Translations under genes and position numbers: made by a program
NCBI GenBank assembly: GCA_030426395.1
Contig: JAUHYE010000001.1
Span: 1 to 64,000, forward strand
Direction: 5' to 3'
DNA length: 64,000 nucleotides
DNA from: Phycisphaerae bacterium
GTDB lineage: Bacteria > Planctomycetota > Phycisphaerae > Phycisphaerales > UBA1924
The notes under the pieces: model-generated
What the model saw: the letters and a program-made list of their open reading frames with translations, nothing else
Database searches by the model: none
What the model was told of the DNA's origin: nothing
Part shown: piece by piece, positions 17,133 through 57,317 of the stretch
Numbering within the stretch: position 1 is the first letter of the stretch
Layout: every line of letters begins with the position of its first letter

Positions 17133-17363
17133 GCGACGATGCACGCCGTGGAGCCAGCAAAAAACGCCGTGATGGCAACAGAAAACGCCGTGAACCGAAC
17201 GAAAAACCTCGTGAAGGCAACGAAAAACGCCGTGAAGGGAACGAAAAACGCCGTGTACCCAACGAAAAATCCCGTGAACGGAACGGAAAATCCCGTGAAC
17301 CCAACGGAAAATGTCGTGAACCCATCGAAAAATCCCGTGAACCCAGCGCATCACGGCGTTTTT
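17133..17363. repeat. 21-nt degenerate tandem array (about 11 units), consensus NNaacgaaaaayNNcgtgaaN
   Basis: Units e.g. gcaacgaaaaacgccgtgaag / ggaacgaaaaacgccgtgtac / ccaacgaaaaatcccgtgaac; exact 21-nt spacing. Confidence 0.95.
17156..17174. repeat. Left arm of 19-bp perfect inverted repeat bounding the 17.1-kb array
   Basis: agcaaaaaacgccgtgatg is the exact reverse complement of 17349-17367. Confidence 0.95.
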
Positions 17364-24533: not shown

Positions 24534-24663
24534 ACCCCAGTATCGCCGGTGGGCCGGGGCTTGTCCACTATTTGTTTCAAAAATGTCTGAAAGATTTGCG
24601 GGGGATCGCGGCCGACACCCGCCCCAGGCGGTTCCCGGGCCCGCCCGGCCCGTTCCTATGGAA

Positions 24664-24936
24664 GGTATGGACGCCCATCGCAAAGGTTTGGACGCGCAGA
24701 TCGAAGGAATGGACGCCCATCGCAAAGGTATGGACGCGCAGATCGAAGGTATGGACGTCCATCGCAAAGGTTTGGACGCGCAGATGGAAGGTATGGACGC
24801 CCATCTCGAAGGTTTGGACGCCCGATGCGAAGGTCCGGACGCTCAGCGCAAAGATCCGGACGCCCGACGCGAAGGTCCGGACGCCCGGCGCAACGGTCCG
24901 GACGTCCGCGTTCACGGGCCCGACGCCGGCGGCGAC
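24664..24936. repeat. 21-nt degenerate tandem array (13 units), consensus GGtNNGGACGcNCaNNNCGaA
   Basis: Units e.g. ggtatggacgcccatcgcaaa / ggtttggacgcgcagatcgaa alternating, degrading to ggtccggacgcccggcgcaac; exact 21-nt spacing. Confidence 0.96.
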
Positions 24937-39644: not shown

Positions 39645-40565
39645 TCACGCGGTCCTGGTCGCCAACCCCCCGAGCACCCGCCGCGCCCGCGCGCAGCGCA
39701 GGGCCAGCCCGCCGGCCATCATCGCTATACCAACGAGCGCCACGCCGAGCCCCCACAAGGGGGACACGAAGCCGAGGGCCACCAGCGGGGCGAGCGCGAT
39801 GCCGGCCAGCGGCAGCAGCGCGGGGGCTTCCTCGAGCATCGCGCGGCGCGTGGTGACGCCCGCGCGCCGCAGCGCGAGCCCGGCGTATTCGAGCGCGGCC
39901 ACGAACACCAGCACGCCGCCGGCGAGCATGACCAGTCCGCCCAGGGCCGCGACGACCGAGCCGATTGCCGGTGCGAACCCGGTGGCCAGGCCCCCGGGGA
40001 TCAGCAGCCCGCAGAACCCCGCGAGCGCCGTGTACATGCCCGTGTTCCACAGCCGCCGCGACCGGTGCGTCCATGGACGCGTCACCTTCGGATGCCGCTT
40101 CTGGGCGTCCTCGAATCGGCTCAGGCACACTATGGCCACCAGCACGGCGATGCCGGCCGCGAGCACGGCACCGGCCTGCAGATCGAGCGCCGCGTTCTGC
40201 TGGATCGTGGAGCCTTCGAGGCCGATCGCTGTTGCAAGCAACAGCGCGCTGATCGCCACCAGCACCGCCGTGCCACCGATAGCGCCGGCCTCGCCGCGCA
40301 CCCGTTCAACATAGATCTCGTGGCACGCGCGCAAATCCCACACCGGCCAGCTCGCCGCGATCACCAGCCCGCACTCGGGGCACTGCCCGGCGGGCGAGAG
40401 CCCCGCCAGGTCGTACCCGCAGCCGGCGCACCCCGTGTCCGCCGGCAGTCGCTCCGCGACGGGGTTGGAGAGCTCCTCGACGGGGTTGGAGATCTCCGCG
40501 ACGGGCTTCAAGAGCCCCGCGGCGGGAGCTTCGGCCTCGGGCGCAGCATGCTCGGGCTCATCCAT
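39645..40565 (-). CDS. Polytopic zinc-ribbon membrane protein, family B copy 1
   Basis: MDEPEHAAPEAEAPAAGLLKPVAEISNPVEELSNPVAERLPADTGCAGCGYDLAGLSPAGQCPECGLVIAASWPVWDLRA. Confidence 0.7.
   Translation of the reverse strand: MDEPEHAAPEAEAPAAGLLKPVAEISNPVEELSNPVAERLPADTGCAGCGYDLAGLSPAGQCPECGLVIAASWPVWDLRACHEIYVERVRGEAGAIGGTAVLVAISALLLATAIGLEGSTIQQNAALDLQAGAVLAAGIAVLVAIVCLSRFEDAQKRHPKVTRPWTHRSRRLWNTGMYTALAGFCGLLIPGGLATGFAPAIGSVVAALGGLVMLAGGVLVFVAALEYAGLALRRAGVTTRRAMLEEAPALLPLAGIALAPLVALGFVSPLWGLGVALVGIAMMAGGLALRCARARRVLGGLATRTA
40452..40535. repeat. 21-nt tandem units (4) in the N-terminal coding region of family B copy 1
   Basis: ctccgcgacggggttggagag / ctcctcgacggggttggagat / ctccgcgacgggcttcaagag / ccccgcggcgggagcttcggc. 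Confidence 0.85.
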
Positions 40566-40694
40566 CGCCCGATCGTTGGCGCACGCGGCACGCAGCGATT
40601 CGAACGCGAAGGCCGCCAAGGGCTCGAAGCCACCCCCCAACGAGCCCACCGCGCGAGCGGGGGGAATGGACACCCGGTCGCACTACCCTTGCCC

Positions 40695-41129
40695 ATGCCC
40701 GCCGAGCCATGCCAGCCCGCCGCCACCATGCGCCAACGGCTCGCGCGCTACTACATCGTCGACGGCGAGCTGCCCGATGCGGTGCGACGGCCGATGCGAT
40801 GGAGCCTTGCCGTGCCGGGGCTGTGCCTGCTGGGCTTGGCCGCCCTCATCGCGCTCGATGTCGCTGGCGTTGTGGCCAGGCCCTACCCGGCGGCGAGCTT
40901 CAGTATCGGAGGGATGGCGATGGCAGGCGTCTGGCTGTGCCATCGCATCGCCAGGAACGCCGTCCGCCGCGCCGACGCCCACGACCACCTGCTCTGCCCC
41001 GACTGCCTCTACGACCTGCGCACGCTCGACGAAGCGGGAACCTGCCCCGAGTGCGGCCGGGCCTACGAGCACGACGCCGTGCGGGCGCAGTGGCTCGATG
41101 CGCAGCGCCGCCTCAAGCGCACGGCATGA
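40695..41129 (+). CDS. Small zinc-ribbon membrane protein, family A copy 3
   Basis: LCPDCLYDLRTLDEAGTCPECGRAYEHDAVRAQWLDAQRRLKRTA. Confidence 0.7.
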   Translation: MPAEPCQPAATMRQRLARYYIVDGELPDAVRRPMRWSLAVPGLCLLGLAALIALDVAGVVARPYPAASFSIGGMAMAGVWLCHRIARNAVRRADAHDHLLCPDCLYDLRTLDEAGTCPECGRAYEHDAVRAQWLDAQRRLKRTA

Positions 41130-41156
41130 CGCCGCTGGCTCGCACGTTCCGCTGCA

Positions 41157-42098
41157 TTACGCAGGATCGACGACCAAGGCGCGCATCGTTCGGGCCAGGC
41201 TCGACGAGAGCCACACCGTCCCGACGGCCGAGCCCACGAGCGCGATGAGCAGCACGGCGATCACCACGCCCGCGAGTACGTCCCCCACGCCGAGCACCGC
41301 CGGGCCGAACGGCAGCGCCGCCCAGGGCAGCACGAGCACGGCCCCGACCACGCGCGCCGGGCGCGGCCGCCCCGAGCGTTCGGCGATCTGCTCGCGCGCG
41401 TCCGCGATGTTCAGGATGAGCATCGAGACGCCCACGCACACGGCGATCAGCGCGGCGTAGGCGACCAGCGTGGTGAGCGGGGACGCGGCCATCCCGAAGA
41501 CGGCCGTGCCGGTCCCGCCGAGCACCACGCCCGCCGCGGCCAGCCACGCGCCCGTGCGCAGGCCGCGCCGCGTGCCGCGGTCCGATCGCGTGCGCTCGTC
41601 GCCCTCGCCGGCGCGCAGCGGCGGGCGGCGGCGCACGGTTCGGTCGAGCTGGACCAGCAGCACCGCCCAGAACAGCAGCGTGACGCCCGCGATGATCGGG
41701 AGCATGATCGCGGCCCACGCGCGGCCGATGCCGATCGCCGCGAAGACCTGCGCCGCCACGGCCGCCAGCAGCAGCCCCATCGCCGCGGCGAGCAGCACCG
41801 CCGCCCGCCGCGCGAGCACGGCCTCGGCGCACAGGTGCTCGACGTACGCCCGGTGGCACGCGCGCACGTCCCACACCGGCCAGCTCGCCGCCGCGTCCAG
41901 CCCGCACTCGGGGCACCGCTCCCCGGGCGCGAGGCCAACCAGGTCGTACCCGCACCGATAGCACGCCACCCCCGCGGGCAGTCGCTCCGCGACGGGGTTC
42001 AAGAGCTCCGCGGCGGGGTTCGGCCGCTCCGCGGCGGGGCTTTCCGGCTCGGCGGCAGCGGCCGCGGACTCAGAAGCGCGATGCTCGGGCTCGTCCAT
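41157..42098 (-). CDS. Polytopic zinc-ribbon membrane protein, family B copy 2
   Basis: AERLPAGVACYRCGYDLVGLAPGERCPECGLDAAASWPVWDVRA plus multiple TM segments. Confidence 0.7.
   Translation of the reverse strand: MDEPEHRASESAAAAAEPESPAAERPNPAAELLNPVAERLPAGVACYRCGYDLVGLAPGERCPECGLDAAASWPVWDVRACHRAYVEHLCAEAVLARRAAVLLAAAMGLLLAAVAAQVFAAIGIGRAWAAIMLPIIAGVTLLFWAVLLVQLDRTVRRRPPLRAGEGDERTRSDRGTRRGLRTGAWLAAAGVVLGGTGTAVFGMAASPLTTLVAYAALIAVCVGVSMLILNIADAREQIAERSGRPRPARVVGAVLVLPWAALPFGPAVLGVGDVLAGVVIAVLLIALVGSAVGTVWLSSSLARTMRALVVDPA
41985..42068. repeat. 21-nt tandem units (4) in the N-terminal coding region of family B copy 2
   Basis: ctccgcgacggggttcaagag / ctccgcggcggggttcggccg / ctccgcggcggggctttccgg / ctcggcggcagcggccgcgga. 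Confidence 0.85.
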
Positions 42099-42119
42099 CG
42101 CCCGATCGTTGGCGCTCGG

Positions 42120-42227
42120 CGTGCGGCCGGTTGGCCCCGGCGTGGGCGCCGCCCATACGAGCACGACGCCGTCCGCGCGCAATGGCTGGACGCCGAGCGC
42201 CGCCTGACGCGCACGCCGCGTGCCTGA
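42120..42227 (+). pseudogene. Relic of a family A zinc-ribbon gene (C-terminus only)
   Basis: YEHDAVRAQWLDAERRLTRT matches family A copy 3 C-terminus YEHDAVRAQWLDAQRRLKRT; no upstream body. Confidence 0.75.
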
Positions 42228-42248
42228 ACCGGGAAGGAGCGCCGCGGC

Positions 42249-43127
42249 TCAGCGCGGGGCGCTGGCCAGTTCGGTGAGCGCGTCGCGCGTGCGCGCGCAT
42301 CGCCTCATCAGGCGGGCCGCGAGCACGGCGATGGCGACCATCGACGGCAGCGCGCACGGCCACCAGGCGTGGATGTCGACCATCGCCACGAGGATGGCGG
42401 GGACCAGCGCGAACGCGAAGCCGGCCGCGACGCGCTCCACGCGCGGGCTCGGATCGTCGAGGCCAACGCGAACCCGCACGCGCGACACCCACGCGTGGCC
42501 GGCGGAGCAGAACAGCGCCGCGCTCGCGCCGGCCACGGCCAGGGCGACCACCCCCAGCTCCGTGGCATCACGCGTGCCCTCGAAGATCCCCATGAAGAGG
42601 AACACCCACGACGCGCACAACCCGACCGCCGCGCCCCAGGCCGCGGGCTGGACCCAGTACGCGACGCCCTCGTCGGAGGACCGCCCGCCCTTGGCGTACT
42701 GCCGGGACGCGACGGTGAGCGAGCACGCCATAAAGGGCAGCAGCAAGATCAAGGATGCGACCAAGAGAAACGAAACGAGGTAGAGCACCCACCCGTCCCA
42801 GCCGACGGCGAAGTCCGGGTTGAGCGCCTCGGCCGCACGGATCGCCCCCACGCCGCACACGATCGACGCGGGCGCGAAGGCCAGCCAGCCCGCGATCCAC
42901 CCGATCGCCGACACCCGAGCGCGCAGCCCCCGCACGATCGCCGCGTCGCCCGCCGCCAGGTCCCACACTGGCCAGCGCGCCGGGGCGGCCAGCCCGCACT
43001 CGGGGCAGGGCTCGCCGGGCGCGAGGCCGACGAGGTCGTAGCGGCAGCGGTCGCACCGCGCCCCCGCGGGCAGTCGCTCCGCGGGGGGCAGCGGCGGCGC
43101 GGGTGGGAGTTGGTCTGGCGCGTCCAT
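42249..43127 (-). CDS. Polytopic zinc-ribbon membrane protein, family B copy 3
   Basis: MDAPDQLPPAPPLPPAERLPAGARCDRCRYDLVGLAPGEPCPECGLAAPARWPVWDLAA. Confidence 0.7.
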   Translation of the reverse strand: MDAPDQLPPAPPLPPAERLPAGARCDRCRYDLVGLAPGEPCPECGLAAPARWPVWDLAAGDAAIVRGLRARVSAIGWIAGWLAFAPASIVCGVGAIRAAEALNPDFAVGWDGWVLYLVSFLLVASLILLLPFMACSLTVASRQYAKGGRSSDEGVAYWVQPAAWGAAVGLCASWVFLFMGIFEGTRDATELGVVALAVAGASAALFCSAGHAWVSRVRVRVGLDDPSPRVERVAAGFAFALVPAILVAMVDIHAWWPCALPSMVAIAVLAARLMRRCARTRDALTELASAPR

Positions 43128-43147
43128 GGCCCGATCGTTGGCGCGGG

Positions 43148-43420
43148 CGGGGCCGAGCCGCTCCGAGCGTGGGCCGATCGGTTCGGCCCGCGGGTGGTCG
43201 CGCTCCCCGATCGCCCCGTCGTGCTCCCCGGCCGCCCCGCTGCGCTCCCGGGCCGCCCCGTCGCACGCTCCAAGACCGACGACGAATGAGCCAAGATCGG
43301 TCCCGAAGAGTTCGTCCTCGATCTCGAACATTTCAGGATCGGTCTCGAAAAATTCGGCATCGATCTCAAGCTCCCCGGCCGCATGGCCGAAGAACCCGAT
43401 GATGCGATCGGGGCGTCCGA
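43148..43420. repeat. 21-nt degenerate tandem array (about 13 units)
   Basis: e.g. gatcggtcccgaagagttcgt / cctcgatctcgaacatttcag / gatcggtctcgaaaaattcgg / catcgatctcaagctccccgg; upstream units tcgccccgtcgtgctccccgg / ccgccccgctgcgctcccggg. Confidence 0.9.
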
Positions 43421-43466
43421 TCGCGTGATCTGGTCCCCGTTCTGCCCCGCGCAGCGGAGCGATTGC

Positions 43467-44159
43467 ATGCCCAAGACCATCACCACCTCCAAGCGCCGCA
43501 CCGTCGGGTTCCTCAAGGCCCGCCTGGCGCCGTGGCAGGAGCACGCCGCCCTTTTGGGGTTCTCCAACCCCGAGCTCGCCGAGGTCCAGGCCGCCTATGA
43601 CGCCGCCCGCGACGCCCTGCGCGAGGCCGAGCTGGCCCGCCAGCGGGCCATCGCCGCCACCGCCGCCTTCGACGCCCTGGGCGAGAAGGCCGAGGCCGCG
43701 GCCCGCAAGGCCGTCCGCCGCATCCGCTTCACCGCCAGCACCAGCCCCGACCCCGCCGCCGTGTACGCCGCGGGGCTCATCGATCCGCCCGGCAGGCCCG
43801 GGCCCAAGAAGGAGCCCCCCGTCCCGGCGACGCCCACGGAACTGGCCCTGACCCTGGACACCCAGGGCCGCGCGGTCGTCGCGTTCGCCGCCAGCCGATC
43901 GGGCGGGGCGGTGTTCGAGGTGCAGCGCCAGGTGGAAGGAGCCGGCCCGCCCGGCGCGAGCGGTGCCGCACGAGCCGGCGAGCGCGTGGGCCCGTGGGAG
44001 CTGGCCGGCACGACGCTCACGCGGCCCTTCGTCGACGGGGCCACACCCAGCGGCGTGGCGACGGTCTACTACCGCGTGCGGGCCCGCCGGCCGGGGGCCG
44101 CCAGCGACTGGAGCGCCCCGGTGGGGCTGCCGATGGGCGTGCGGCCCCACACCGACTAA
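43467..44159 (+). CDS. Helical N-term plus Fn3-like C-term protein, array-associated family member A
   Basis: Paralog of 56609-57304 (shared ALLGF/L...., AVYAA...PP...GP...P.TP, Fn3-like V.Y.V.A). Confidence 0.7.
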   Translation: MPKTITTSKRRTVGFLKARLAPWQEHAALLGFSNPELAEVQAAYDAARDALREAELARQRAIAATAAFDALGEKAEAAARKAVRRIRFTASTSPDPAAVYAAGLIDPPGRPGPKKEPPVPATPTELALTLDTQGRAVVAFAASRSGGAVFEVQRQVEGAGPPGASGAARAGERVGPWELAGTTLTRPFVDGATPSGVATVYYRVRARRPGAASDWSAPVGLPMGVRPHTD

Positions 44160-44163
44160 CCCA

Positions 44164-44226
44164 CTCCGTGGGGGGGTGTGGCCGCTCCGCGGGGGGTTTT
44201 CGCGGCTCCGCGGGGGGGGCTTTTCC
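44164..44226. repeat. 21-nt tandem units (3) downstream of array-associated gene A
   Basis: ctccgtgggggggtgtggccg / ctccgcggggggttttcgcgg / ctccgcggggggggcttttcc. Confidence 0.85.
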
Positions 44227-44300
44227 GCCTCTCCTTGGGCCACGATTACCGCGAACGCGCACGGGCGGACGCGGGGCTGTTTGACAGGCTACTGTTCGGT

Positions 44301-44867
44301 ATGGCCGCGACCGACTCCACCCTGACCACCACCAGCATCCAGAGCCCCGTCGGCGAGCTGACCCTCGCTTCGATCACGGACCCGGATGGTCCCCGCGTGT
44401 GCCTGGTCGAGTTCGGCCACCGGCAGGGGGCCGCGCTGGACGCCCTGGCCACCATGTTCGACGCCGACGTGCGGCCGAGCGTCGACCCGCCCGAGTGCCC
44501 GGCCCTGGCGCTCCTGATCCAGGAGCTCCAGGCCTACTTCGTGGGCGACCTGAAGCAGTTCACGGTTCCTCTGGAACTGGCGGGCACGGCCTTCCAGACG
44601 GCGGTCTGGAACGGGTTGCTCGACATCCCCTACGGCCAGACCCTCGGCTATGGCGACCTCGCACGGGCCATCGGCAAGGACGCCGGCGCGTCGCGGGCGG
44701 TCGGGGCGGCCAACGGGGCGAACCGGCTGGCGATCGTGGTGCCGTGCCACAGGGTCGTCGCGGCCGACGGCAGCCTGCACGGCTACGGCGGCGGGCTGGA
44801 CCGCAAGCGCTGGCTGCTGGACCACGAGCGCACGGTGGCCGGCGGCTTGTTCGCGACGGCGAGTTAG
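44301..44867 (+). CDS. ogt: Methylated-DNA--protein-cysteine methyltransferase
   Basis: TAFQTAVWNGLLDIPYGQTLGYGDLARAIGKDAGASRAVGAANGANRLAIVVPCHRVVAADGSLHGYGGGLDRKRWLLDHE. Confidence 0.95.
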   Translation: MAATDSTLTTTSIQSPVGELTLASITDPDGPRVCLVEFGHRQGAALDALATMFDADVRPSVDPPECPALALLIQELQAYFVGDLKQFTVPLELAGTAFQTAVWNGLLDIPYGQTLGYGDLARAIGKDAGASRAVGAANGANRLAIVVPCHRVVAADGSLHGYGGGLDRKRWLLDHERTVAGGLFATAS

Positions 44868-44915
44868 CATCTATTTGTAGAGCGCGGGGTCGCAATCGTC
44901 CGTTGAGAGGGTCGC

Positions 44916-45893
44916 ATGCGCGTGACCGCGATCATCCCGAGCCGCGGCGGGGCCGATGGGGCGCTCGCCCGCTGCGTCGCCGCCCTGCTGGCCGAGCGCG
45001 ACGCCAAGCTCCGCATCGTCGCGAGCATCGATGGGCACGATGCGCCCGCCGACCTGGAGCCCCTGGCCCGAGATAGCTCGGTCACGGTCGTCACCGGCGA
45101 ACAGGGCGGCCCGAGCGCCGCCCGCAACCGCGCACTCGAGCACGCCGACGGCCAGCTCGTGCTCTTCCTGAACGACGACGTGGTCCCCGCGCCGCGATTG
45201 ATCGACCACCACCGCGCAGCCCACCGCGATGGCGCGCCCAGGCTCGTCCTCGGCGATGCGCCCTTCGCCGTGCCGACGGGCGATCGCGTCCTCGACAGGT
45301 TGACCCGCGAGACGGCGCTGCTGTTCTTCTACAGCGACATGAACGGCGTCGAGCGCGACCGCGACTGGGGCTTCCGCCACGCGTGGACGCTGAATCTCTC
45401 GGTGCCGCGGGCCGTCTGCGCGGCGTTCGATGAGGGGCTCAAGTTCCCGATGTTCGACGACCTGGAGTGGGCCTACCGCGTCACGACCGAGCACGCCGCG
45501 CCCGTCGTCTACCGCCCCGAAGCAAGCGCCGTGCACCACCACCGCTACGAGCCGGGCCAGATCCTCGCCCGCGAGGCGCTGCTGGGCCACCAGGCGCTCG
45601 CCCTGCACCGCGTGAACCCCCAGTGCGCCACGAGCGTGTTTGGCGAACGCTTCGATGGCTCTCCCCAGTCCATCCATGATGCGCAGGCCCTCATCACCAC
45701 CGACGCCGCGCAGGAGTACGCGCACTTCGAGGAACTGGCCACCAAGCCCGCGCTGAGCGTGAACATCCACGACCTCTTCGCCCGCGCCCGCGGCTGGCGC
45801 ATGGCCGCCCGCGCCGCCGGCTTCCTGGCCGCCGCCCAGGGCGCCCCGCCGCCCAGGCCCGACGCCATCTTCACCCAGAACGCGAGCACGTAA
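44916..45893 (+). CDS. Glycosyltransferase family 2
   Basis: VTAIIPSRGGADGALARCVAALL ... GPSAARNRALEHADGQLVLFLNDDVVPAPRLI. Confidence 0.88.
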   Translation: MRVTAIIPSRGGADGALARCVAALLAERDAKLRIVASIDGHDAPADLEPLARDSSVTVVTGEQGGPSAARNRALEHADGQLVLFLNDDVVPAPRLIDHHRAAHRDGAPRLVLGDAPFAVPTGDRVLDRLTRETALLFFYSDMNGVERDRDWGFRHAWTLNLSVPRAVCAAFDEGLKFPMFDDLEWAYRVTTEHAAPVVYRPEASAVHHHRYEPGQILAREALLGHQALALHRVNPQCATSVFGERFDGSPQSIHDAQALITTDAAQEYAHFEELATKPALSVNIHDLFARARGWRMAARAAGFLAAAQGAPPPRPDAIFTQNAST

Positions 45894-45896
45894 CCC

Positions 45897-47927
45897 ATGC
45901 CCGCGCGCACGGGCCACGTCGTCCTCTTCGGCAGCCGCCGCCCGCTCGACCAGTTTGCCGGCGTGCCGCAGATCCTGCGGGATCGCGGCGTCGAAGTTTT
46001 CTACGAGCGCCTGTGGGATCGCGAGATGCGCTTCGGGCACCACGCCAATCCCGAGGTGCTCCGCGGCGCCCGCGCCGTCGCCTTCGCCGATCTGAGCTAC
46101 AACTGCCACATCGCGCCGACCAGGCTCGCCCGCGCCATGAAGATCCCCACCGTGCTGCTGGTCGACGGCGTCGTCGAGCACGCCAACACCATGTGCAACC
46201 CGTGGATGGGCCTCGGCCACCTCCGAGCCATGCCCCAGGACACGCTGCTGGCGATGGGCCCGCTGGCGGGCCGGATCCTCTCGGGGATGGACAACCGCGT
46301 CGTGACAACGGGCCTGCCGCGCCTCGACGGCTTCGAGCAGCGCATCGCCGAGGCACGCACGCGCTTGGATGCAAACCAGTGGCTCGTCGTCGCCACCGCC
46401 AACACGCCGGCGATGGACGGCGAATCGCTCGGCAAGATCCGCTCGTGGCTGCAACGGCTGCACAAGGAGATCGAACGAAAGAAGCTGCCCACGCGCTGGC
46501 GCGTGCATCCCTCGATCGCCGAGCGGCTTGGCGTGTCGGTGGACGACGCCCCGCTCACCGAAACGCTCGCCGGCGCCATCGCGACCATCACCACGCCCAG
46601 CACGCTGGCCGTCGAGAGCATGCTCGCCCGGGTCCCCACCGCCATCGCCAACCCCGCCGGCAACCCGCTGTGGGTGCCCGCGGCGTGGGTGTGGCAGCGC
46701 GAGCGTCCCGATCGGCCGATCGCGGGCATGCCCATCGAGCACTTCACCGAGCCTCGCGCCCTGCTGGACGTGCTGCTCGGCGCGCCGGACCTTTCCGCCC
46801 AGTGCCAGATCCTCGACCAACTGCACACGCCGAACGCCGCCGAGAAGGTCGCGCGCGCCATCCTCGACGCCGAGTATCGAAACCACGGCCATACGGTCAA
46901 GACCATGGCCAGCGTCTGGCTGCGCGAAGAACCGTGCCACACGCTGTTCGTCGCGATGTGCGACCACGCGAACCAGCGACCGCCGATCGTGGACACCGCG
47001 CTCGACGCGATCCAAAACGACGAGGCCGCCCACCTGCTGTGCGTGGGCCTCTCGCCGCTGAACTTCCTCGACCAGCGCGTGCCCGCGCTCGGCCCGCCCC
47101 GCACGAGCGGCGTGGTGCTCGACCCCACCGCCCCCACGCACGAGCGCGCGCAGGCGGTGCTCGACGCCGCCCTCGCGCTCAACCCCAAACAGATCATCCT
47201 CGACGATGATCGCGCTTTGCCGCTCGCCGCGCGGCTCGTCGCCCGGGGGGTGCGGTGCGACGACGCCCGCTTGGCCACGCGCAACGACCACGTCGTCCGC
47301 ACGATCGAGCAGTGGCCCTGGGCCCCGCAATCGCCCGCCGACGAATCCGCCGCCGATTCGTGGTTCGAGCACGAGCTGCGTCAGGCCGGCTACCACACCA
47401 TCGCGTACGACGCACCCGCCACGGGCTGCGACGCCGTCCTCGTCCGCGCTGCTTCACCGCGACCGCATCCCTCGCTCGTCGAGCAGTGGCGCGCCCAAGG
47501 TTTGGGCGTCGCCGTCTCACCCAATATGTACGTCGAAACCGGCGTCTATGCGGCAGAGCACACCATCGACCGGCTCATTACACAGGATTGCGCACGCATT
47601 GCCGTTGCACACAGTCCCGAGCGTTCGCCCGTGCTCGCGGCCCCCATCCGCCACGGCGCGCCCATCATCGGCTGGCTCGACGACATCGCCGCCGAACCCA
47701 CGACCCACATGGGCCTGCCCGCGCACGCGTTCGATGCCGGAGTCGAACGATTGCGCCCAGACGCGATCCTGGTGCTGCACGAGGAGGACCTGCCGCGCTG
47801 CCGCGCGACCGGCCTGCCCACCGAACTGGTTAACCTAGACGAAGCTCTGACGCACCAGCCCGATCATCGCCTCGGCGAACCGGTCCATCGCGAATCGCTC
47901 GCGCACCCGGGGGTCGATGGCGGCTGA
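45897..47927 (+). CDS. Glycan-related transferase-like protein (CDP-glycerol transferase/GT-B-like N-terminus)
   Basis: Large coherent ORF; ITTPSTLAVESMLARVPTAIANPAGNPLW; ends overlapping a convergent gene. Confidence 0.5.
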   Translation: MPARTGHVVLFGSRRPLDQFAGVPQILRDRGVEVFYERLWDREMRFGHHANPEVLRGARAVAFADLSYNCHIAPTRLARAMKIPTVLLVDGVVEHANTMCNPWMGLGHLRAMPQDTLLAMGPLAGRILSGMDNRVVTTGLPRLDGFEQRIAEARTRLDANQWLVVATANTPAMDGESLGKIRSWLQRLHKEIERKKLPTRWRVHPSIAERLGVSVDDAPLTETLAGAIATITTPSTLAVESMLARVPTAIANPAGNPLWVPAAWVWQRERPDRPIAGMPIEHFTEPRALLDVLLGAPDLSAQCQILDQLHTPNAAEKVARAILDAEYRNHGHTVKTMASVWLREEPCHTLFVAMCDHANQRPPIVDTALDAIQNDEAAHLLCVGLSPLNFLDQRVPALGPPRTSGVVLDPTAPTHERAQAVLDAALALNPKQIILDDDRALPLAARLVARGVRCDDARLATRNDHVVRTIEQWPWAPQSPADESAADSWFEHELRQAGYHTIAYDAPATGCDAVLVRAASPRPHPSLVEQWRAQGLGVAVSPNMYVETGVYAAEHTIDRLITQDCARIAVAHSPERSPVLAAPIRHGAPIIGWLDDIAAEPTTHMGLPAHAFDAGVERLRPDAILVLHEEDLPRCRATGLPTELVNLDEALTHQPDHRLGEPVHRESLAHPGVDGG

Positions 47928-49925
47928 CCACTCCGCGCGCCACGATATATCTTGAGCGTTGCGCACGACGCGTTCCAGCTCATCCTCGCTCGCGAAACCG
48001 ACCTCGCCCACGTCCACGAGCATGCGTCCGGGATCGTCCTCGGGCATCTTGGGCTTGCCCAGCGGACAATTCCTCAGCATCTCCAACTCGTGCACCGACG
48101 GCGACACCATGCCGTTCTCGCCCAGCGTCAGCCCGCACCGCGCCCACAACTCGGCCACGCGTTGCAGCCCCTCGTGCTTCTCGATCTGGTAGCTCGGCCG
48201 GCCGTCTTCGGTGCTGCCATCGGGCTCGACGCTTCCCACCATCGCGTTGAGCTGGAACCATCGCGGACGATCGATGTCCTCGAACGTCCGCCGCACGATC
48301 GGCAGCCCGCCGCTCATCGCCGCCTCGGCCACGCGCTGGTGCATCAGCCCGCGCACCGACGCGTGGATCGTCACGCCCGCGAGCTGGTACGCCGCGCGTA
48401 ATTCCTCGCCATGCCCGAGCTCGCCCTTCGCGAATGGCGCCAGCTCGGGGTGGTCCTCCCACCCGTTGCCGTACAGGTGCAGCCGCCAGCCGTTGCGTTC
48501 ACACACCTGGGCGGCCCATCGCGCCGCCTGCTGGCGAAAGTGCAGGTCGGCCAGCGGCATGGCGATCTCGTGCAGGAAGCCCTCGACCATCGCCGGCGAC
48601 GGTGCTCGCCCCGATGTCGTCCGTATCGCCTCCTCGCACCGGACCCGAAGCTCCCGCGCGATCCACCGGTGCTCGCGCTGGGCACGCTCGAGCCCCAGCG
48701 GCACCAGCCGCTCCAGTTCCTTGATCGCCCGCGCCGTCGTGGCTGAGCCCTCGACCTCCTCGATCTTCCGGCGCACGTACGCCTCGGGCGGCTCGCTGTG
48801 CCGCGTCATCATCGCCACGTCGCACCGCAGGTGCTCGAAGCCGTCACCCACCGGCCCGCGATGGAACTTGGCCGGCGAGACCGCGTTGGGCCACGCCAGC
48901 ATCCGCTGCTCGGGCACGCCGATGCGCGTGCGCAGCTCGGGGTACAGCATCCCCACTACGAAGTCGAGCGTGCCCGCGCGCGGCGGCTGCGCCCCGGAGA
49001 AATAGTGCGGCATCGCGTCCTGCGACCACGTCACCACCGGCACGTGCGGCGGCAGCACCGGGCCGATCTGGGGCCGGAAGTAGTTGATGAGCACCACGCC
49101 GTCGGGGTCGAATTCGCTGACCGCGCGCGTGTAGTGCAACTGCGTCTGCCGCGTGTGATCGTCGGGCTCGAGCAGCAGCCGGGCCTGGTGGCCGATCTCG
49201 CCCAGCGCGTGGGCCAGGTCTTCCGCCGCGTGCCGCATGTACGTCGAGAACCGCGTCGTGCTCACGAGAATCCTGAGCTTCTTCCCTTCGCGCCACCGCG
49301 CACGGACCGCCTCGCGCCGCTGGCGGCTGTTGGCAATCTCGCGCATCGCCATCGACCGCTCGCGCATCAGCGCCTGCTGCCGCGCGTGCGCCTCGCCCAG
49401 CACCTTCGCCACGCCAGCCGCCAGCTCGGCCGGCCCGCCGTTGGGCGCCACGTCCTTGGGAAGCGGGTCGTCGACGCGCTCGGCGAGCCACGCCTGCAAC
49501 CCCGGCATCGCCCGCGGCCCCACGAACCACTCGACGCCCGGTGCCTCGAGCAGTTCCCTCGCCGCGGCCTCGCCATCCGAGGCGGCGTACCGGGCCAAGG
49601 CAGCCATCGCCACCTCCGCGCGCGGCTCGACGACCATGATGCGCGGCCGGAACTGCAGCGCCCCCGACCGATCGGCCACCGCCCGCGCCAGCACATCGAC
49701 CGAGCCCACACCCGCGATCGCCACCGGCGGCGCAAACCGCTCGCCCTCGGGCCAGACCACCCGGCCCGTGCCTCCGGCCGGTGCCTGACCAAGCGCTGGG
49801 CCAACGCCCTCGAGCACGCCGCCGCTCAGCCCCCATCGCTCGCCCGCCAATGGCCACAGCGACGACGCCAACTCGAGCAACGGAGCAGAACCTGCGGGCG
49901 CACGGACAGCGGGGATCGCGGACAT
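47835..49925 (-). CDS. Glycosyltransferase (CgeB/DUF3880-like)
   Basis: LRILVSTTRFSTYMRHAAEDLAHALGEIGHQARLLLEPDDHTRQ ... YGNGWEDHPELAPFAKGELGHGEELRAAYQLAGVTIHASVRGLMHQRVAEAAMSGGLPIVR. Confidence 0.75.
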   Translation of the reverse strand: MSAIPAVRAPAGSAPLLELASSLWPLAGERWGLSGGVLEGVGPALGQAPAGGTGRVVWPEGERFAPPVAIAGVGSVDVLARAVADRSGALQFRPRIMVVEPRAEVAMAALARYAASDGEAAARELLEAPGVEWFVGPRAMPGLQAWLAERVDDPLPKDVAPNGGPAELAAGVAKVLGEAHARQQALMRERSMAMREIANSRQRREAVRARWREGKKLRILVSTTRFSTYMRHAAEDLAHALGEIGHQARLLLEPDDHTRQTQLHYTRAVSEFDPDGVVLINYFRPQIGPVLPPHVPVVTWSQDAMPHYFSGAQPPRAGTLDFVVGMLYPELRTRIGVPEQRMLAWPNAVSPAKFHRGPVGDGFEHLRCDVAMMTRHSEPPEAYVRRKIEEVEGSATTARAIKELERLVPLGLERAQREHRWIARELRVRCEEAIRTTSGRAPSPAMVEGFLHEIAMPLADLHFRQQAARWAAQVCERNGWRLHLYGNGWEDHPELAPFAKGELGHGEELRAAYQLAGVTIHASVRGLMHQRVAEAAMSGGLPIVRRTFEDIDRPRWFQLNAMVGSVEPDGSTEDGRPSYQIEKHEGLQRVAELWARCGLTLGENGMVSPSVHELEMLRNCPLGKPKMPEDDPGRMLVDVGEVGFASEDELERVVRNAQDISWRAEWSAAIDPRVRERFAMDRFAEAMIGLVRQSFV

Positions 49926-49965
49926 CCCCCGTCCATCGGCCTCGCGTTCGTGCCCGCACCAGAAG

Positions 49966-51198
49966 ATGGCCGATGACCACGCGGTGAGCGCCGTCCAGAC
50001 CGATACGAAGCCCCAGACCTGGCACCCCAAGGCCCCGCGCCTGCCGCTGGTGCCCCAGCTCCGCGAGCGGCTGCTCGACCGTACCGCTGCGTGGTTGGCC
50101 GCCCATGGCGTCAAGCGCATCGCCCTCTACCCCGGCGGCCGCCACACCAGCGCGATCATCCGCCAGCCCTGGCTCTTCCACGGCATCGAGGTCGCCGCCG
50201 TCCTCGACGACCAGCCCCAGCGCGACCACCTCACCGGTGTGCCGGTCCTGACACCAGCGCAGGCCGCCAGCGATCCCAGCTTCCAGGCCGTCGTCCTGAG
50301 CACCACCGAGCACGAAGAGCAACTGGCCCAGCGGGCCCAGGCCGCGTTCGCGGGCACCGCGGTCCAGGTCATCTGCCTCTACCTGCCCGACGACACCCTC
50401 TGGGAGGCCAACGCCACCATCGAACGCCTCGTCGCCCGCGGCATCCCCCTCGACGACGCCCGCTGGCTGGTCGACAACCGCGGGGAACGCCACGACGCCC
50501 TGCTGCCGATCATCCCGCCCGCGCGTACCGAACTGCACGCCCGCCGCTACGAGCTCGCCGCCGACGTTGCACTGCAAACCAACGCCACACGCATCGCGGA
50601 CGCCGCGAGTGGCACGGGCTACGGCTCCCGCCTGCTGGCCACCATCGCCGGCGCGCGCACCGATGGCGTCGATCTCGACCCCGACGCTGTCGGCTATGCC
50701 CAACGCCACCACGCCTGCGAGGGGCGCTGCGCCTTCCACCACGCCGACGCCTGCGATACGGGCCTCGCGTCCAACGCCTACGACCTGGCCGCCAGCTTCG
50801 AGACCATCGAGCACGTCGAGAATGCCACCGGCCTGATCGCCGAGTTGCATCGCATCCTCAAACCCGGCGGCACCCTGGTCATCAGCACGCCCAACCGCAT
50901 CGGGCCCACGCCCTACCACGTGCACGACTTCGGCTTCCCCGAGTTCGCCGCGATGATCGAGAGCGCGTTCACCATCGAACGCTGGATCGGCCAGAGCGCC
51001 ACCGACGAGGTGCACAGCCCAGACCTGCCACCGGGCATGTGGCCCATCGATCCCGCCGCCGCGAGAGATGAGCGTTGGACGTCCGGCGGCGGCAAGCCCC
51101 AGTTCCTCATCGCGATTGCGCGAAAGAGCGACGATGGCAAGGCCATGAGCCACCTCGACGCCATCGTCTCGTGGATGCGCCAAACCCCCGGCGCATAA
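49966..51198 (+). CDS. Class I SAM-dependent methyltransferase with N-terminal nucleotide-sugar/PglD-like region
   Basis: ADAASGTGYGSRLLATIAGARTDGVDLDPDAVGYAQ ... ETIEHVENATGLIAELHRILKPGGTLVISTPN. Confidence 0.85.
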   Translation: MADDHAVSAVQTDTKPQTWHPKAPRLPLVPQLRERLLDRTAAWLAAHGVKRIALYPGGRHTSAIIRQPWLFHGIEVAAVLDDQPQRDHLTGVPVLTPAQAASDPSFQAVVLSTTEHEEQLAQRAQAAFAGTAVQVICLYLPDDTLWEANATIERLVARGIPLDDARWLVDNRGERHDALLPIIPPARTELHARRYELAADVALQTNATRIADAASGTGYGSRLLATIAGARTDGVDLDPDAVGYAQRHHACEGRCAFHHADACDTGLASNAYDLAASFETIEHVENATGLIAELHRILKPGGTLVISTPNRIGPTPYHVHDFGFPEFAAMIESAFTIERWIGQSATDEVHSPDLPPGMWPIDPAAARDERWTSGGGKPQFLIAIARKSDDGKAMSHLDAIVSWMRQTPGA

Positions 51199-51386
51199 CC
51201 GAACACTTCATCTCCATTTCATGCCGTGCGTGCTCGCGCCGTCCCGATCTCCCCGCGCTCGGCGCGGATCCTCCCCGGTTTTCCCGAGGTTTTGCGAATG
51301 TTTTACCGTTTCGCCGGTATGGTCCTCGTACCGAATCGATCGGGGGGAAGTTCAATACCCGGAACCCGGGAGAGAGGACAGTATAT

Positions 51387-52424
51387 ATGTTTACGAGTTT
51401 CAAGACCGCCGCCATCGCGTCCGCCGCCGGCCTTGCCATGTGCGCGAGCGCCGCCCACGCCCAGTTCATCACCGGCATCACCAAGCCCGTCTTCGGCGAG
51501 AACCAGCCCGAGGCCTACTTCAACCTGGGCGACAGCAACACCTTCCTGTTCGACATCGAGACCGACCTTGGCATCCCCGCCACCGCGCCGGGCTTCACGG
51601 GCCTGGCGGGCGACGACCGCAACCGCCGCTTCTTCGCCACCGTGCGCAACGGCCCCAACGACGATGTCTACGTCTTCAGCTACGACGACCTCTTCAACCC
51701 CACCAAGCTCGTCGAGACCCAGGACGACGCCGGCAACGATATCTCCATCGATGGGCTCGCTTACGACGCCGACGCCGAGATCCTCTACGGCACGCGCACG
51801 CTGGGCAGCGGCGGGTTGCCCGAGGGCCTCTACGCCATCGACCTGGATACCGGCGTGCTCACCCTTGCCCTCGACTATGCCGACCCGAGCAGCACCTACA
51901 CCATCGGCGCCATCGACTACAACGAGGACGACGGCCTGATCTACCTGGCCGACGACGACGACACCGGCGGCCGCTGGATCTACAGCGTCGACCCGCTCGA
52001 CCCGACGAGCGGCCTCACCGAGATCGTGCAGTTCCCAGACAACGTCACCGACGTGGACGGCCTGGCCGCCGGCGGGGGCGAGATCTTCCTGCTCACCGAC
52101 AACGCCAACGCCAACGACGGCGTGCACCACATCTACAACCTGGCCGACGGCACCTTCGGCACCGCCCCCTCGCCCTACCCCGCGCCCGCGGGCAGCCCCA
52201 TCGCCCCCAACCCCAGCGGCGGGGCGGGCTACACGCCCAACCTGCTGGATGTCGGCGGCTGCCGGGCCGACATCGACGGCGACGGCGAGCTGACCCTCTT
52301 CGACTTCCTCGAGTTCCAGAACCTCTTCGACGCGGGCGACCTGCAAGCCGACTTCGACGAGGATGGCGAGCTGACCCTGTTCGACTTCCTCGAGTTCCAG
52401 AACCAGTTCGACGCCGGCTGCTGA
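51387..52424 (+). CDS. Secreted protein with dockerin-like C-terminus
   Basis: Signal peptide; CRADIDGDGELTLFDFLEFQNLFDAGDLQADFDEDGELTLFDFLEFQNQFDAGC. Confidence 0.8.
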   Translation: MFTSFKTAAIASAAGLAMCASAAHAQFITGITKPVFGENQPEAYFNLGDSNTFLFDIETDLGIPATAPGFTGLAGDDRNRRFFATVRNGPNDDVYVFSYDDLFNPTKLVETQDDAGNDISIDGLAYDADAEILYGTRTLGSGGLPEGLYAIDLDTGVLTLALDYADPSSTYTIGAIDYNEDDGLIYLADDDDTGGRWIYSVDPLDPTSGLTEIVQFPDNVTDVDGLAAGGGEIFLLTDNANANDGVHHIYNLADGTFGTAPSPYPAPAGSPIAPNPSGGAGYTPNLLDVGGCRADIDGDGELTLFDFLEFQNLFDAGDLQADFDEDGELTLFDFLEFQNQFDAGC

Positions 52425-52450
52425 TCGCCGCCTCGACATGGATACTCCCA

Positions 52451-52473
52451 GGCCGCCTCCGGGCGGCTTTTTT
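52451..52473 (+). terminator. Rho-independent terminator
   Basis: gccgcc-tccg-ggcggc followed by tttttt. Confidence 0.75.
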
Positions 52474-52516
52474 CGTGCAACGCCGCCGCCGCTGGCAAAC
52501 CTGACCGCCCGGGGAC

Positions 52517-53113
52517 ATGATCCAGAGCGCTCTCCACCCCAACGACCCCCACCCCACGGGAGGACAGGCCGCCATCCACACCGGCCAGGCCCAAGCCGAA
52601 TCCAGCCCGCGGCCGACGCTGGCCCGCGCCGAGTTCGCGCGCCTGTTCGACGCCGCCACGCCCACGCTGCGGCTGGTCGCCGCCGCCGAGGTCGGGCGCT
52701 CCCACGCCGACGACGTGGTGCAGCAGGCCGCCATCATCGCGATGGAGCGCCTCGACCGCTTCGAGGCCGGCACCGACTTTCGCGCCTGGATGGCGGCAAT
52801 CACCCGCGGCGCCGCGCGCAACCACCGCCGCGGCGAACAGGCCCGCCACCGCCGCGAGCGCACGCCCCGCCTGCTCCCGCGCCGCCAGCCCAGGCCGGCC
52901 GAGCACCCGTCGCCCGAAGCGCACACGCCGCTCTTCGACGCGCTCACGCGGCTCACGCCCGCCCAACGCGAGTGCCTGCTGCTGCGCGTCGTGGGCGAGC
53001 ACACCTACGAGGAGATCGCCACGATCCTGGGCATCCCCGCCGCCACCGCACGCAGCCACACCTACCGGGCCCGGGCCCACCTGCTCGAACGCATGGAAGG
53101 GGGCGACTCGTGA
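52517..53113 (+). CDS. RNA polymerase sigma-70 family (ECF) sigma factor
   Basis: DDVVQQAAIIAMERLDRFEAGTDFRAWMAAITRGAARNHRR ... LTPAQRECLLLRVVGEHTYEEIATILGIPAATARSHTYRARAHL. Confidence 0.9.
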   Translation: MIQSALHPNDPHPTGGQAAIHTGQAQAESSPRPTLARAEFARLFDAATPTLRLVAAAEVGRSHADDVVQQAAIIAMERLDRFEAGTDFRAWMAAITRGAARNHRRGEQARHRRERTPRLLPRRQPRPAEHPSPEAHTPLFDALTRLTPAQRECLLLRVVGEHTYEEIATILGIPAATARSHTYRARAHLLERMEGGDS

Positions 53114-53805
53114 TCGAACGCAACGACATCGAGCGCCTCATCGCCTACGCCGAGGGCGACTTGTCCCAGGACGAGCGCGCCGCGCTCGAGGCCGAGCTGC
53201 GCGAGCGCCCCGACCTGGCCCGCACCCTCGACCAGCTCAACGCCGACGCCGACGCGCTGCGCCGGCACTTCACGTTCCAGTCCGCCGCGCCCGAGCGCTC
53301 GCCCCGCGTGAGGCTCGCCGCCATCGCCGCCGTGCTGGCCATCACCGCCATCATCGCCTTCTTCGCGATGCCCGCGCCCGTGCGCACCGTCCAGCTCGGC
53401 CACGCCCGCGGGGTGCTCGAAGGCCCCTTCGAGCCCGCCGTCGTCTGCGACACCAGAGAGAAGTTCCGCCAGTACGGCATCGACACCTTCGGTGTGCCCC
53501 TGACCGCCGACTTCCAGCAGGCCGCCGCCGGCAACGTCACGCTGATCGGCTGGGCCGCCTACGAGGGTCGCTACGGCCGCGACGTCGAGTCGGGCGAGAA
53601 TCCCCTGCGTGTCCTGCTCGCCCGCGCCCCCGACGGCAGCCGCATCGCCGTCGTCTTCCGCCCGCCGGGCACGCTGCGCTTCGACGACGGCTACACCCAC
53701 GGCTTCACCCGCCACAGCACGACGATCGGCGGCCTGGAGGTCGACGAGATCGGTACCAACAGCCAGGCCGTCGTCCTGCCGCTGCTGGGCGTCGAGGGCG
53801 AGTGA
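53110..53805 (+). CDS. Anti-sigma factor-like membrane protein
   Basis: GTG overlapping sigma stop; IERLIAYAEGDLSQDERAALEAELRERPDLARTL; one TM LAAIAAVLAITAIIAFFAM. Confidence 0.7.
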   Translation: MIERNDIERLIAYAEGDLSQDERAALEAELRERPDLARTLDQLNADADALRRHFTFQSAAPERSPRVRLAAIAAVLAITAIIAFFAMPAPVRTVQLGHARGVLEGPFEPAVVCDTREKFRQYGIDTFGVPLTADFQQAAAGNVTLIGWAAYEGRYGRDVESGENPLRVLLARAPDGSRIAVVFRPPGTLRFDDGYTHGFTRHSTTIGGLEVDEIGTNSQAVVLPLLGVEGE

Positions 53806-53808
53806 GGC

Positions 53809-54804
53809 CTACGGGCAGCCAAGGTCGAACGCGTTCTGGAACGCCAGGAAGTCGAAGATCGTCAGCGAGCCGTCGCCGTCGAAGTCGGCCTCGCACGGCT
53901 CGGGCGGCATGACGGCCACACCCATCGGATACAGCACGCCGCCGACACCATTGATCACACGAACACCCTCGAAAGATCCCGTCAGTCGGTCGTACTCGCC
54001 GACGGCGGTGATCGGGCTGCGCGACGTCACCAGCAGCCCGTTCGTGTTCGGGTCGATTGTCATCTGGCCAAGCGGAGCGCCGCCGTGTGCGACCACAAGG
54101 ACCTCCGGCACGCCGCCGACCGGCACCACAACGGCCGTACCCGATACCGCCCCGGCAACATACACACGGCCGGGCTCGTCGATGACGACACTGACGGGTC
54201 CATCCAGTCCCGCCGCGCCAGCCGGCACTATGTCGTCAAGATAGTCGCCGGTGTTTCCGTCGAAGCGCAACACACGGTCGTCGTCATAGCTGGCGACGCA
54301 GAGATTTCCGTCGGCATCGAAGGCCATGCCCCGCGGGCCGGCCAGCCCCCCCACGCCAGCCTCAACGAACACATCCATGAAGCTCCCCGCCGTGCCAAAC
54401 CGCAGCACGCGGTTCGAGTCGTCGCTCACGTACATCAGGCCATCGTCATCAAAGGCGATTCCCCGCGGCCCGTCGAGGTCCCCATCCCTCGTCCAGGTCC
54501 TCACCCCCTGCCCCGTCTGGCCTTCGTAGCGCAGCACGACGTTGTTCTTCGTGCTGACCGCGTACAGCCCGCCGTCGGGGCCGAACAGGATCTCGCCCAC
54601 CCCATCGATGTGCGAGAACGCCGGACTCGTGAAGAGGTCGAGAGCCTCGGCACCGCCCAGCTGGTAGCGGATGATCTCGTCATCGTCGGCATCGGCCACC
54701 AGCAGGCGCGAGTCGTCCTGGGCGTGGGCATCCGCCGCCGCTACGGCGATCGCCGCCAGCCCCATCACGCCCCAGACCTTCCCGCTCCGCGTCGTTGCCG
54801 CCAT
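53809..54804 (-). CDS. NHL-repeat-like secreted protein with single dockerin motif
   Basis: LDGPRGIAFDDDGLMYVSDDSNRVLRF, LAGPRGMAFDADGNLCVASYDDDRVLRF; CEADFDGDGSLTIFDFLAFQNAFDLGCP. Confidence 0.8.
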   Translation of the reverse strand: MAATTRSGKVWGVMGLAAIAVAAADAHAQDDSRLLVADADDDEIIRYQLGGAEALDLFTSPAFSHIDGVGEILFGPDGGLYAVSTKNNVVLRYEGQTGQGVRTWTRDGDLDGPRGIAFDDDGLMYVSDDSNRVLRFGTAGSFMDVFVEAGVGGLAGPRGMAFDADGNLCVASYDDDRVLRFDGNTGDYLDDIVPAGAAGLDGPVSVVIDEPGRVYVAGAVSGTAVVVPVGGVPEVLVVAHGGAPLGQMTIDPNTNGLLVTSRSPITAVGEYDRLTGSFEGVRVINGVGGVLYPMGVAVMPPEPCEADFDGDGSLTIFDFLAFQNAFDLGCP

Positions 54805-54873
54805 GTGCCGCCTCCTTGCTGCTCGTGTGTCCACGGTCATCATCGGGTGACCCGCTTCCTACCCTCCACGCCT

Positions 54874-55959: not shown

Positions 55960-55996
55960 GAAGGCAATGGGGATTGGGCATGAGGCGATAGGAAGA

Positions 55997-56110
55997 AGAT
56001 GAGGGGATAACCGCAGAGACACGGAGGCACAGAGAGAGGAAAGAGACGTGACGTTTCTTGTCCCCTCCCTCGCTCCCAGCGGGGGAGGTGCCGAGGTCTT
56101 CCGAGGCGGA
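55997..56110. repeat. Two interspersed-repeat-type segments in tandem
   Basis: gataaccgcagagacacggaggcacagagag followed by cccctccctcgctcccagcgggggaggtgccgaggtcttccgaggcggaggg. Confidence 0.6.
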
Positions 56111-56146
56111 GGGGGTCTTCGCTTCTTCTTGTGCTAACGTAACTGC

Positions 56147-56326
56147 ATGAGCCTGTGGGAATGGATCCTGACAATCGTGGGCTGGACGCTCCGTCTGGGC
56201 TTCGGGCTGGCTCTGCTGCTCGTTCTCGCCGCGTTGATTTACGATTCACCTCGGATCTGGCGGAAGTGGAAACGGGGCGAGTACCAACGCCGATGGCGTG
56301 AAGAGCGGGCTCGAAGGCGCGAATAG
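56147..56326 (+). CDS. 59-aa single-TM small protein (below ORF-track cutoff)
   Basis: MSLWEWILTIVGWTLRLGFGLALLLVLAALIYDSPRIWRKWKRGEYQRRWREERARRRE*. Confidence 0.5.
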   Translation: MSLWEWILTIVGWTLRLGFGLALLLVLAALIYDSPRIWRKWKRGEYQRRWREERARRRE

Positions 56327-56350
56327 TCACCGATTTCACTCACCCCGCCC

Positions 56351-56497
56351 GATCCACCCGTGCGCACCGCTCCCCCACCGATGCGCACGATTGGCGCAAT
56401 CGTGCGCATCGGTACGTCACCGGTGGCTTCCGGCCGCCCAACGGTGCGCATTCTCGGACCAACGGACGCCAGCGGTGGCCTACCGGTGGCTTCCTCT
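56351..56497. repeat. 21-nt degenerate tandem array (7 units)
   Basis: gatccacccgtgcgcaccgct / cccccaccgatgcgcacgatt / ggcgcaatcgtgcgcatcggt / acgtcaccggtggcttccggc / cgcccaacggtgcgcattctc / ggaccaacggacgccagcggt / ggcctaccggtggcttcctct. Confidence 0.9.
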
Positions 56498-56608: not shown

Positions 56609-57304
56609 ATGCCCACCACCCCCACCATCCCCGACCGCTTCGCCCCGGCCATCCAGTGGTGCGGCCAGCGGATCGACAAGTGGCAGGAGAACCGGGCGTT
56701 GCTCGGGCTGACGCAGGCGGGCGTCGACGAGCTCGACGCCCGGATCCAGGCGGCCCGCGACGCCCGGGCCAGCTACCTGCGGGCCAAGCGCGAGCTGCGC
56801 AATGCCTCCAAGACCTACCGCGCCAGCGTCGGCACGATGCGACGGACCGCCGCGGCCCTGCTGGCGACGATCCGCGCGACGGCCAAGCGCAGCGATGAAC
56901 CCACGGCCGTCTACGCCGCCGCCAGCGTGCCGCCCCCCGCCAAACGCGGGCCCAGCCCCACGCCGGCCACGCCGCGGGACTTCGAGGTCGAGCTCCTGGG
57001 CGACGGCGCGCTCAAGGTGCGCTTCGAGTGCCCCCACCCCCCCGGCGTGCGGGCTGTGACGTACCGCGTCGAGCGGATGCTCGACATGGCCGGCGGGCTG
57101 ACGATCATCCAGACGGCCAAGGGGCGTTCCTTTACCGACGACACCATCCCGGCGGGCACCCGCAGCGTGCTGTACAAGGTGACGGCCCAGACCTCGACGC
57201 GCGACGGCGAGGCGGCGGTGCACCTGGTACCCTTCGGGCAGGGGTCGATGGCTGGGGGGGCGGCGGAAGTGAACGAGGCGCCCGAGGCGGGGCGGGCGGC
57301 TTGA
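56609..57304 (+). CDS. Helical N-term plus Fn3-like C-term protein, array-associated family member B
   Basis: Paralog of 43467-44159; RALLGLTQAGVDELDARIQAARDARAS...AVYAAASVPPPAKRGPSPTPATP..VTYRVERML...SVLYKVTAQT. Confidence 0.7.
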   Translation: MPTTPTIPDRFAPAIQWCGQRIDKWQENRALLGLTQAGVDELDARIQAARDARASYLRAKRELRNASKTYRASVGTMRRTAAALLATIRATAKRSDEPTAVYAAASVPPPAKRGPSPTPATPRDFEVELLGDGALKVRFECPHPPGVRAVTYRVERMLDMAGGLTIIQTAKGRSFTDDTIPAGTRSVLYKVTAQTSTRDGEAAVHLVPFGQGSMAGGAAEVNEAPEAGRAA

Positions 57305-57317
57305 AGAGCCGGAGGGG

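Follow-up and report, generated by a model that had tools for sequence, protein, structure and literature searches.

The DNA considered here, which we call the window, is a stretch of 64,000 nucleotides from a Phycisphaerae bacterium (contig JAUHYE010000001.1), part of a genome of 3.49 Mb in 186 contigs of which about 1.15 Mb was read for this analysis. It holds two genes, family genes A and B, each preceded by a tandem array of 21-bp units (Table 1), and it is the connection between such arrays and this gene family that concerns us. A preliminary description, made from the letters of the window, had proposed that the two genes are relatives, that 21-nt arrays stand before both and again after the first, and that a functional or mutational link joins genes and repeats. 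The kinship is genuine (E 2.6e-13) and all three arrays are real, though the one before gene A, described as a single array, proves to be two sub-arrays with differing units and not one homogeneous array. Its identity at lag 21 is 0.56, versus 0.285 in the dinucleotide-preserving shuffles with which the arrays of the window were compared, and the best other lag gives 0.33; Tandem Repeats Finder (TRF), used as a second array call, picks out 43197-43264 and 43318-43367 within it. Array A fills a divergent intergenic region, with a minus-strand zinc-ribbon gene on its other side. Array B, whose unit is different again, has identities of 0.48/0.52/0.58 at lags 21/42/63, and is real yet degenerate, under the threshold applied in the array surveys described below. 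The units just past gene A have the same motif as two further arrays of the window, at 40451 and 41984.

Table 1. Arrays and family genes in the window (L-numbers denote stretches of the genomes that were read)
Feature	Position	Strand	Basis or remark
Array A: roughly 13 units of 21 bp, degenerate, forming two sub-arrays	43148..43420	+	lag 21, z 9.6
Array A, sub-array 1, unit like GTCGCGCTCCCCGGCCGCCCC	about 43148-43273	+	self-comparison
Array A, sub-array 2, unit like GATCGGTCTCGAAAAATTCGG	about 43274-43420	+	self-comparison
Leader between Array A and ATG, 46 bp	43421..43466	+	sequence
Family gene A, 230 aa	43467..44159	+	helical from about residue 9 to 103, Fn3 from about 115 to 225
Three 21-bp units, CTCCGCGGGGGG..., 4 bp past the stop of family gene A	44164..44226	+	z 4.6
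Array B: about 7 units of 21 bp, degenerate, before family gene B	56351..56497	+	z 5.2-6.4
Family gene B, 231 aa, ending ...GRAA (ssrA-like C-terminus)	56609..57304	+	sequence search
21-bp array between a PEP-CTERM-like gene and atpA, not by a family gene	17143..17348	.	unit 88% match to L046 array
21/42-bp array flanked by a MarR-like and a secreted dockerin-type gene, not by a family gene	24658..24931	.	TRF

A search of the whole genome with the 230-aa protein found 64 related places, and a profile built from them recognises 63 family members in the stretches read. The main survey covered 924 kb around these genes (genome G000 in our labelling), arrays being called by gapless self-comparison with a threshold and counted as upstream when within 700 bp of a gene start; control genes came from a simple purpose-written gene caller, and since some of them face a family gene across a divergent region the contrast between family and controls is conservative. 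Period 21 accounts for 60 tandem segments, and 21, 42 and 63 dominate, with every non-multiple of 21 among periods of 6-70 bp supplying at most eight; period 81, also frequent, comes from repeats inside the coding sequence of dockerin-type genes. When merged the segments make 69 arrays, 37 of them no more than 700 bp upstream of a family gene, 30 elsewhere and 2 close downstream. The units following gene A are thus peculiar to that locus, and the association of arrays with the family is an upstream one only.

The link itself, and the comparison with other genes by which it was to be judged, came out in favour of the preliminary description, since arrays are not equally frequent by unrelated genes: 34/61 family genes have one upstream and 25/381 others do (p 1e-18). 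The comparison was extended to a sister species and to another genus (G016), making three genomes of two genera, and upstream enrichment is present in all three, with 11/20 family genes versus 7/147 others in the other genus (p 7e-8) and, more weakly, 5/21 versus 7/138 in the sister species (p 0.01). Restriction to intergenic regions of at least 450 bp leaves 28/39 versus 12/51 in the genome of the window (p 6e-6) and 10/16 versus 4/39 in the other genus (p 1.6e-4). A threshold-free profile of lag-21 identity peaks at about -600 to -200 from family gene starts in each of the three. Contigs of the window's genome without family genes (228 kb) have 17.5 arrays per Mb, and in genomes where the family has 0-2 copies there are 0-10 period-21 segments per Mb, the latter in small samples. 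The arrays are tied to the family, not exclusive to it.

What is kept between relatives is the place and the pitch. Reciprocal-best members across species share 72-86% DNA identity over the gene and a leader of 150-450 bp, with the proviso that about half of the sister species' family copies were read, so that some of these pairs may be paralogs. Where both orthologs have arrays these agree in place and period, and their units are usually unrelated (L041/L073, L025/L103, L048/L102, L038/L101), even with proteins 84% (L041/L073) or 76% (L025/L103) identical; array lengths vary as well, and the syntenic pair L051/L105 keeps a recognisable common unit. The paralogs L059 and L065 show 81% identity from position -239 through the gene and past it, and the similarity ends at the arrays. 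Presence of an array is inherited, requiring 20 changes on the gene tree versus 33.1 +/- 2.6 in shuffles. Similarity of units shows no correlation with protein identity (Mantel rho 0.006, p 0.45), on which ground co-divergence of protein and unit was rejected. When each array is compared with its 21-bp consensus the total is 1764 substitutions and 10 indels, and in orthologous leaders 399 and 41, a ratio of indels to substitutions 18-fold lower in the arrays and in keeping with fixed helical phasing at an exact 21-bp pitch, though in part a matter of ascertainment because the arrays were found by gapless comparison; as a check on this, flanks that continue an array out of phase were seen in 3/74 cases.

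As for the units themselves, they follow one another head-to-tail without spacers, which sets them apart from CRISPR arrays. Their dyad symmetry is 0.586, versus 0.519 in intergenic background (z 4.5), and the arrays fold more stably than their column-permuted versions (mean z -1.84 +/- 0.27). Retention of hairpins by compensatory change was entertained when 103/184 two-sided changes were seen to preserve pairing, and was given up when a fitted null left 33/61 versus 24 expected. A single unit or binding motif common to all was likewise rejected: units differ, and the information in a common profile, 3.61 versus a null of 3.21 (maximum 3.34), is barely above null.

The proteins bear out what had been said of their architecture, a helical N-terminus and a C-terminus of fibronectin type III (Fn3) character. 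AlphaFold2, supplied with 58 paralogs, gives a model with a predicted local distance difference test score (pLDDT) of 92.8, in which a helical N-terminal domain with a long helix at 34-92 is followed by a beta-sandwich. That C-terminal domain is an Fn3 domain: it matches many such domains by fold (Foldseek) and the Fn3-like 3mpc by profile (E 2.2e-7), although Pfam recognises no Fn3 in single family members. The helical domain, modelled alone, reaches a pLDDT of 95.5; it has no relative among solved structures at E <= 0.001 and no match to a DNA-binding family, and its net charge is near zero. No consistent Pfam or NCBIfam match to the whole protein was found among 58 members, no consistent defence match in PADLOC, and by eye, no predictor having been run, no signal peptide; the proteins are small and probably cytoplasmic. 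Other species of the genus have 2, 21, 26, 38, 42 and 46 copies and other genera 25 in one and 14 and 10 in two more, with none in many genera of the same taxonomic family, outside of which there are weak matches alone, mostly to Fn3 only. A close relative occurs in 'Phycisphaeraceae bacterium TGS_PLA1'. In a distant planctomycete (G051, stretch L169) short proteins match the helical domain only (profile positions 3-94) and are without the Fn3 part. A phage origin was considered and rejected, there being no relative in phage or viral collections; four weak head-decoration matches in PHROG are via Fn3.

Most of the proteins end alike. In the window's genome 50/61 terminate in Ala-Ala, Ala-Gly or Ala-Ser, versus 17/466 other genes, and in the other genus all 20 end in Ala-Ala, preceded in 17/20 by a hydrophobic residue as in (K/R)LAA; gene A is atypical, ending ...RPHTD without Ala-Ala. 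The transfer-messenger RNA (tmRNA) tags of these genomes end YALAA, and a terminal Ala-Ala-carboxylate is the main determinant of recognition by ClpX (PMC7652416). The family thus has the C-terminal Ala-Ala, or similar, of an ssrA-like ClpX C-degron, and the signature, the tags and the ClpX contact together make degradation by ClpXP through the tail likely. A family of about 60 probably unstable cytoplasmic proteins, overlooked by annotation libraries, is now described.

Arrays away from the family have their own affinities. At least five lie in the window (3522, 17143, 24658, 40451, 41984), none adjoining a family gene, and two of these resemble arrays of family members: that at 17143-17348 matches L046:6158-6408, on a different contig, and that at 24658-24931 matches L020:8995-9299 (80%, opposite strand). 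Further pairs between a family array and a place without a family gene are L065:9836-10181 with C54:23149-23494, L025:515-730 with L011:5694-5912, L018 with C119 and L062 with C179, the C-numbers denoting further array contigs; those remote partners whose neighbours are readable adjoin genes for secreted proteins, in a small and mixed sample. Matching arrays (82%) at L022:10665-11048 and L029:3479-3673 are neither of them beside a family gene. That non-family arrays are generally relics of lost family genes was rejected, few cases at most (L029:3479, C54) being of that kind. It looked consistent at first that family arrays pair with arrays standing before secreted dockerin or PEP-CTERM genes, and this is kept as a lead only: one such pair, at L063:380, turned out to involve a family gene truncated by the end of its contig, the contigs of the partner arrays C119 and C179 hold none of the 150 listed dockerin places, and dockerin genes taken together show only a mild enrichment in arrays (9/64 versus 25/381 others).

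Other repeats were met on the way. A very large secreted family ending in a dockerin-like double repeat, DFDGDGELTIFDFLAFQNAFDAGC, with a period of 81 nt, has at least 150 places in the genome, four of them in the window (21307-21468, 22739-22900, 26314-26481 and 52260-52421), and the stretches of genus G016 that were read showed none. A hairpin-rich dispersed repeat of about 115 bp, with the core GGGCTAACGCCCGGGCCGCTCAGCGGCCGCGCC...GGATGCCCCGTCGC, recurs, in either orientation, 0-450 bp downstream of family genes (L012, L029, L039, L042, L046, L059, L062, L063) and beside one solo 21-bp array (L029:3006-3243). On the minus strand at 39645-43128 stand three adjacent paralogous zinc-ribbon genes (RCGYDLxGLxxxxxCPECG), each with aacgatcgggccATG just upstream; in the first two, 21-bp units open the coding sequence as 7-residue repeats, for example NPVEELSNPVAERLPA, and in the third the array is just upstream of the start.

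How is so constant a pitch to be reconciled with such freedom of sequence? What persists is period, place and presence, and what changes is sequence, which points to an element read by its pitch and perhaps its dyad symmetry. Our preferred reading, to which we would give not quite an even chance, is that the arrays are candidate upstream cis-elements, presumably regulatory, of a family of short-lived proteins, and that their working property is a fixed 21-bp pitch and not a sequence. A putative DNA-binding or DNA-bending protein would occupy one unit after another along a single face of the helix, and so set expression of the family gene, the array acting on that gene's promoter downstream; gain or loss of units in 21-bp steps would preserve helical phase and so account for the persistence of 21-bp units alone; and the proteins made would be removed by ClpXP via their tails. 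The stronger proposal of a cis-regulatory class in which only the 21-bp pitch, two turns, and local dyad symmetry are selected, the sequence being free, and which would serve dozens of paralogous ssrA-tailed Fn3 proteins in Phycisphaerales, we regard as rather doubtful. Several points weigh against a pitch-read cis-element: about 44% of family members have no array above threshold and about 5-7% of non-family genes do carry one upstream; at locus A the geometry is unusual, the leader being so much shorter than the 150-450 bp of most members, with no sigma-70-like promoter found between Array A and gene A; the dyad bias is modest, the excess of compensatory changes weak, and the scarcity of indels owes something to how the arrays were found.

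The strongest rival does without function altogether. Replication or repair would amplify 21-bp (and 42-bp) stretches at certain intergenic places, the family loci with their long upstream regions being hot spots, and arrays would arise, decay by substitution and arise again. Such by-products, possible though on balance unlikely, would accord with units unrelated across loci and orthologs, with arrays by unrelated genes, with a 42-bp higher-order periodicity typical of slippage or unequal exchange, and with highly regular arrays differing between species when degenerate ones can be shared (L051/L105). They would not by themselves, however, account for the exact 21-bp pitch of nearly all arrays, the persistence of enrichment after matching for intergenic length, the tracking of the gene tree or the dyad bias; that persistence and that tracking lean against them, as does the low indel rate. 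Relocation is harder to credit and we hardly expect it: array, leader and gene would be a mobile or often relocated cassette-like unit, arrays elsewhere being relics or copies. The family members L025, L044 and L048, whose sister-species pairs have no conserved neighbours, and L038, with next to none, might suggest as much, as might the units common to family loci and remote places and the 115-bp repeat after several family genes and by a solo array; against that, the pairs of L040, L045, L051, L053 and L061 are syntenic, most solo arrays show no family remnant, no transposase or common terminal structure was recognised across loci, and phage and viral collections hold no relative.

Were the arrays to work instead as RNA, transcribed in a long 5' leader as strings of hairpins that are processed or protein-bound, their folding above column-permuted versions would find a use. 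This we consider improbable, since the excess follows from dyad symmetry, found in operators too, compensatory changes are only weakly over expectation, many arrays are without a strong hairpin, and no Rfam family was found in 40000-58000. A unit private to each locus, together with dyad symmetry, would also fit autoregulation in which specificities have diverged, each family protein binding the array of its own gene; independence of unit and protein similarity and a near-neutral helical domain without DNA-binding or solved-fold relatives make that very improbable. Least credible of all is that the arrays encode 7-residue repeats. Twenty-one is a multiple of three, and at 40451 and 41984 arrays do coincide in part with the 5' coding sequence of zinc-ribbon genes, but array variability has no codon-position contrast (p 0.67) and stop-free frames no excess over intergenic DNA (z 0.4), and therefore, with stops inside them besides, the arrays are taken not to be coding.

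In the literature searched no description of such a system of arrays and family was found, and it is by partial likeness that it must be placed. Known promoter variable number tandem repeats (VNTRs) and contingency loci have unit lengths that vary from locus to locus and a sequence fixed at each. The present arrays resemble them in standing upstream of members of a multigene family, where repeat number could tune expression, and differ in holding the unit length constant while the sequence is free. Iterons consist of a conserved sequence recognised by one protein; with these and with phased operator arrays the present ones share repeats of about two helical turns and dyad-like units, but no unit sequence is common across loci. 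The proteins are like other Fn3-domain proteins, 3mpc among them, in C-terminal fold and sequence, and unlike them in that the Fn3 is fused to a helical domain without known relative, the whole being covered by no Pfam or NCBIfam family. Their endings are of the kind of ssrA-type ClpX C-degrons (PMC7652416), with the distinction, known here by sequence, that the tail is gene-encoded and runs across a whole paralogous family.

The closest comparison is with the intergenic satellites of prokaryotes, which in most species number fewer than 4 per Mb and have mixed periods (PMC6749651, Subirana and Messeguer 2019). The arrays share with such minisatellites their shortness, their scattered intergenic positions and units private to each, and depart from them in being dominated by one exact period, 21 and its multiples, in being tied to one gene family, and in their density, which near that family is tens per Mb. 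With phasing present and a common unit absent, neither intergenic satellites nor iteron or operator arrays fit fully. Only if a pitch-dependent function proves true could one speak of a categorically new class; meanwhile a genome dominated by one exact period, which is retained in a gene lineage from one species to the next as the unit changes and is tied to a family with ssrA-like tails, provides a clean natural test of DNA pitch alone as a selected regulatory feature.
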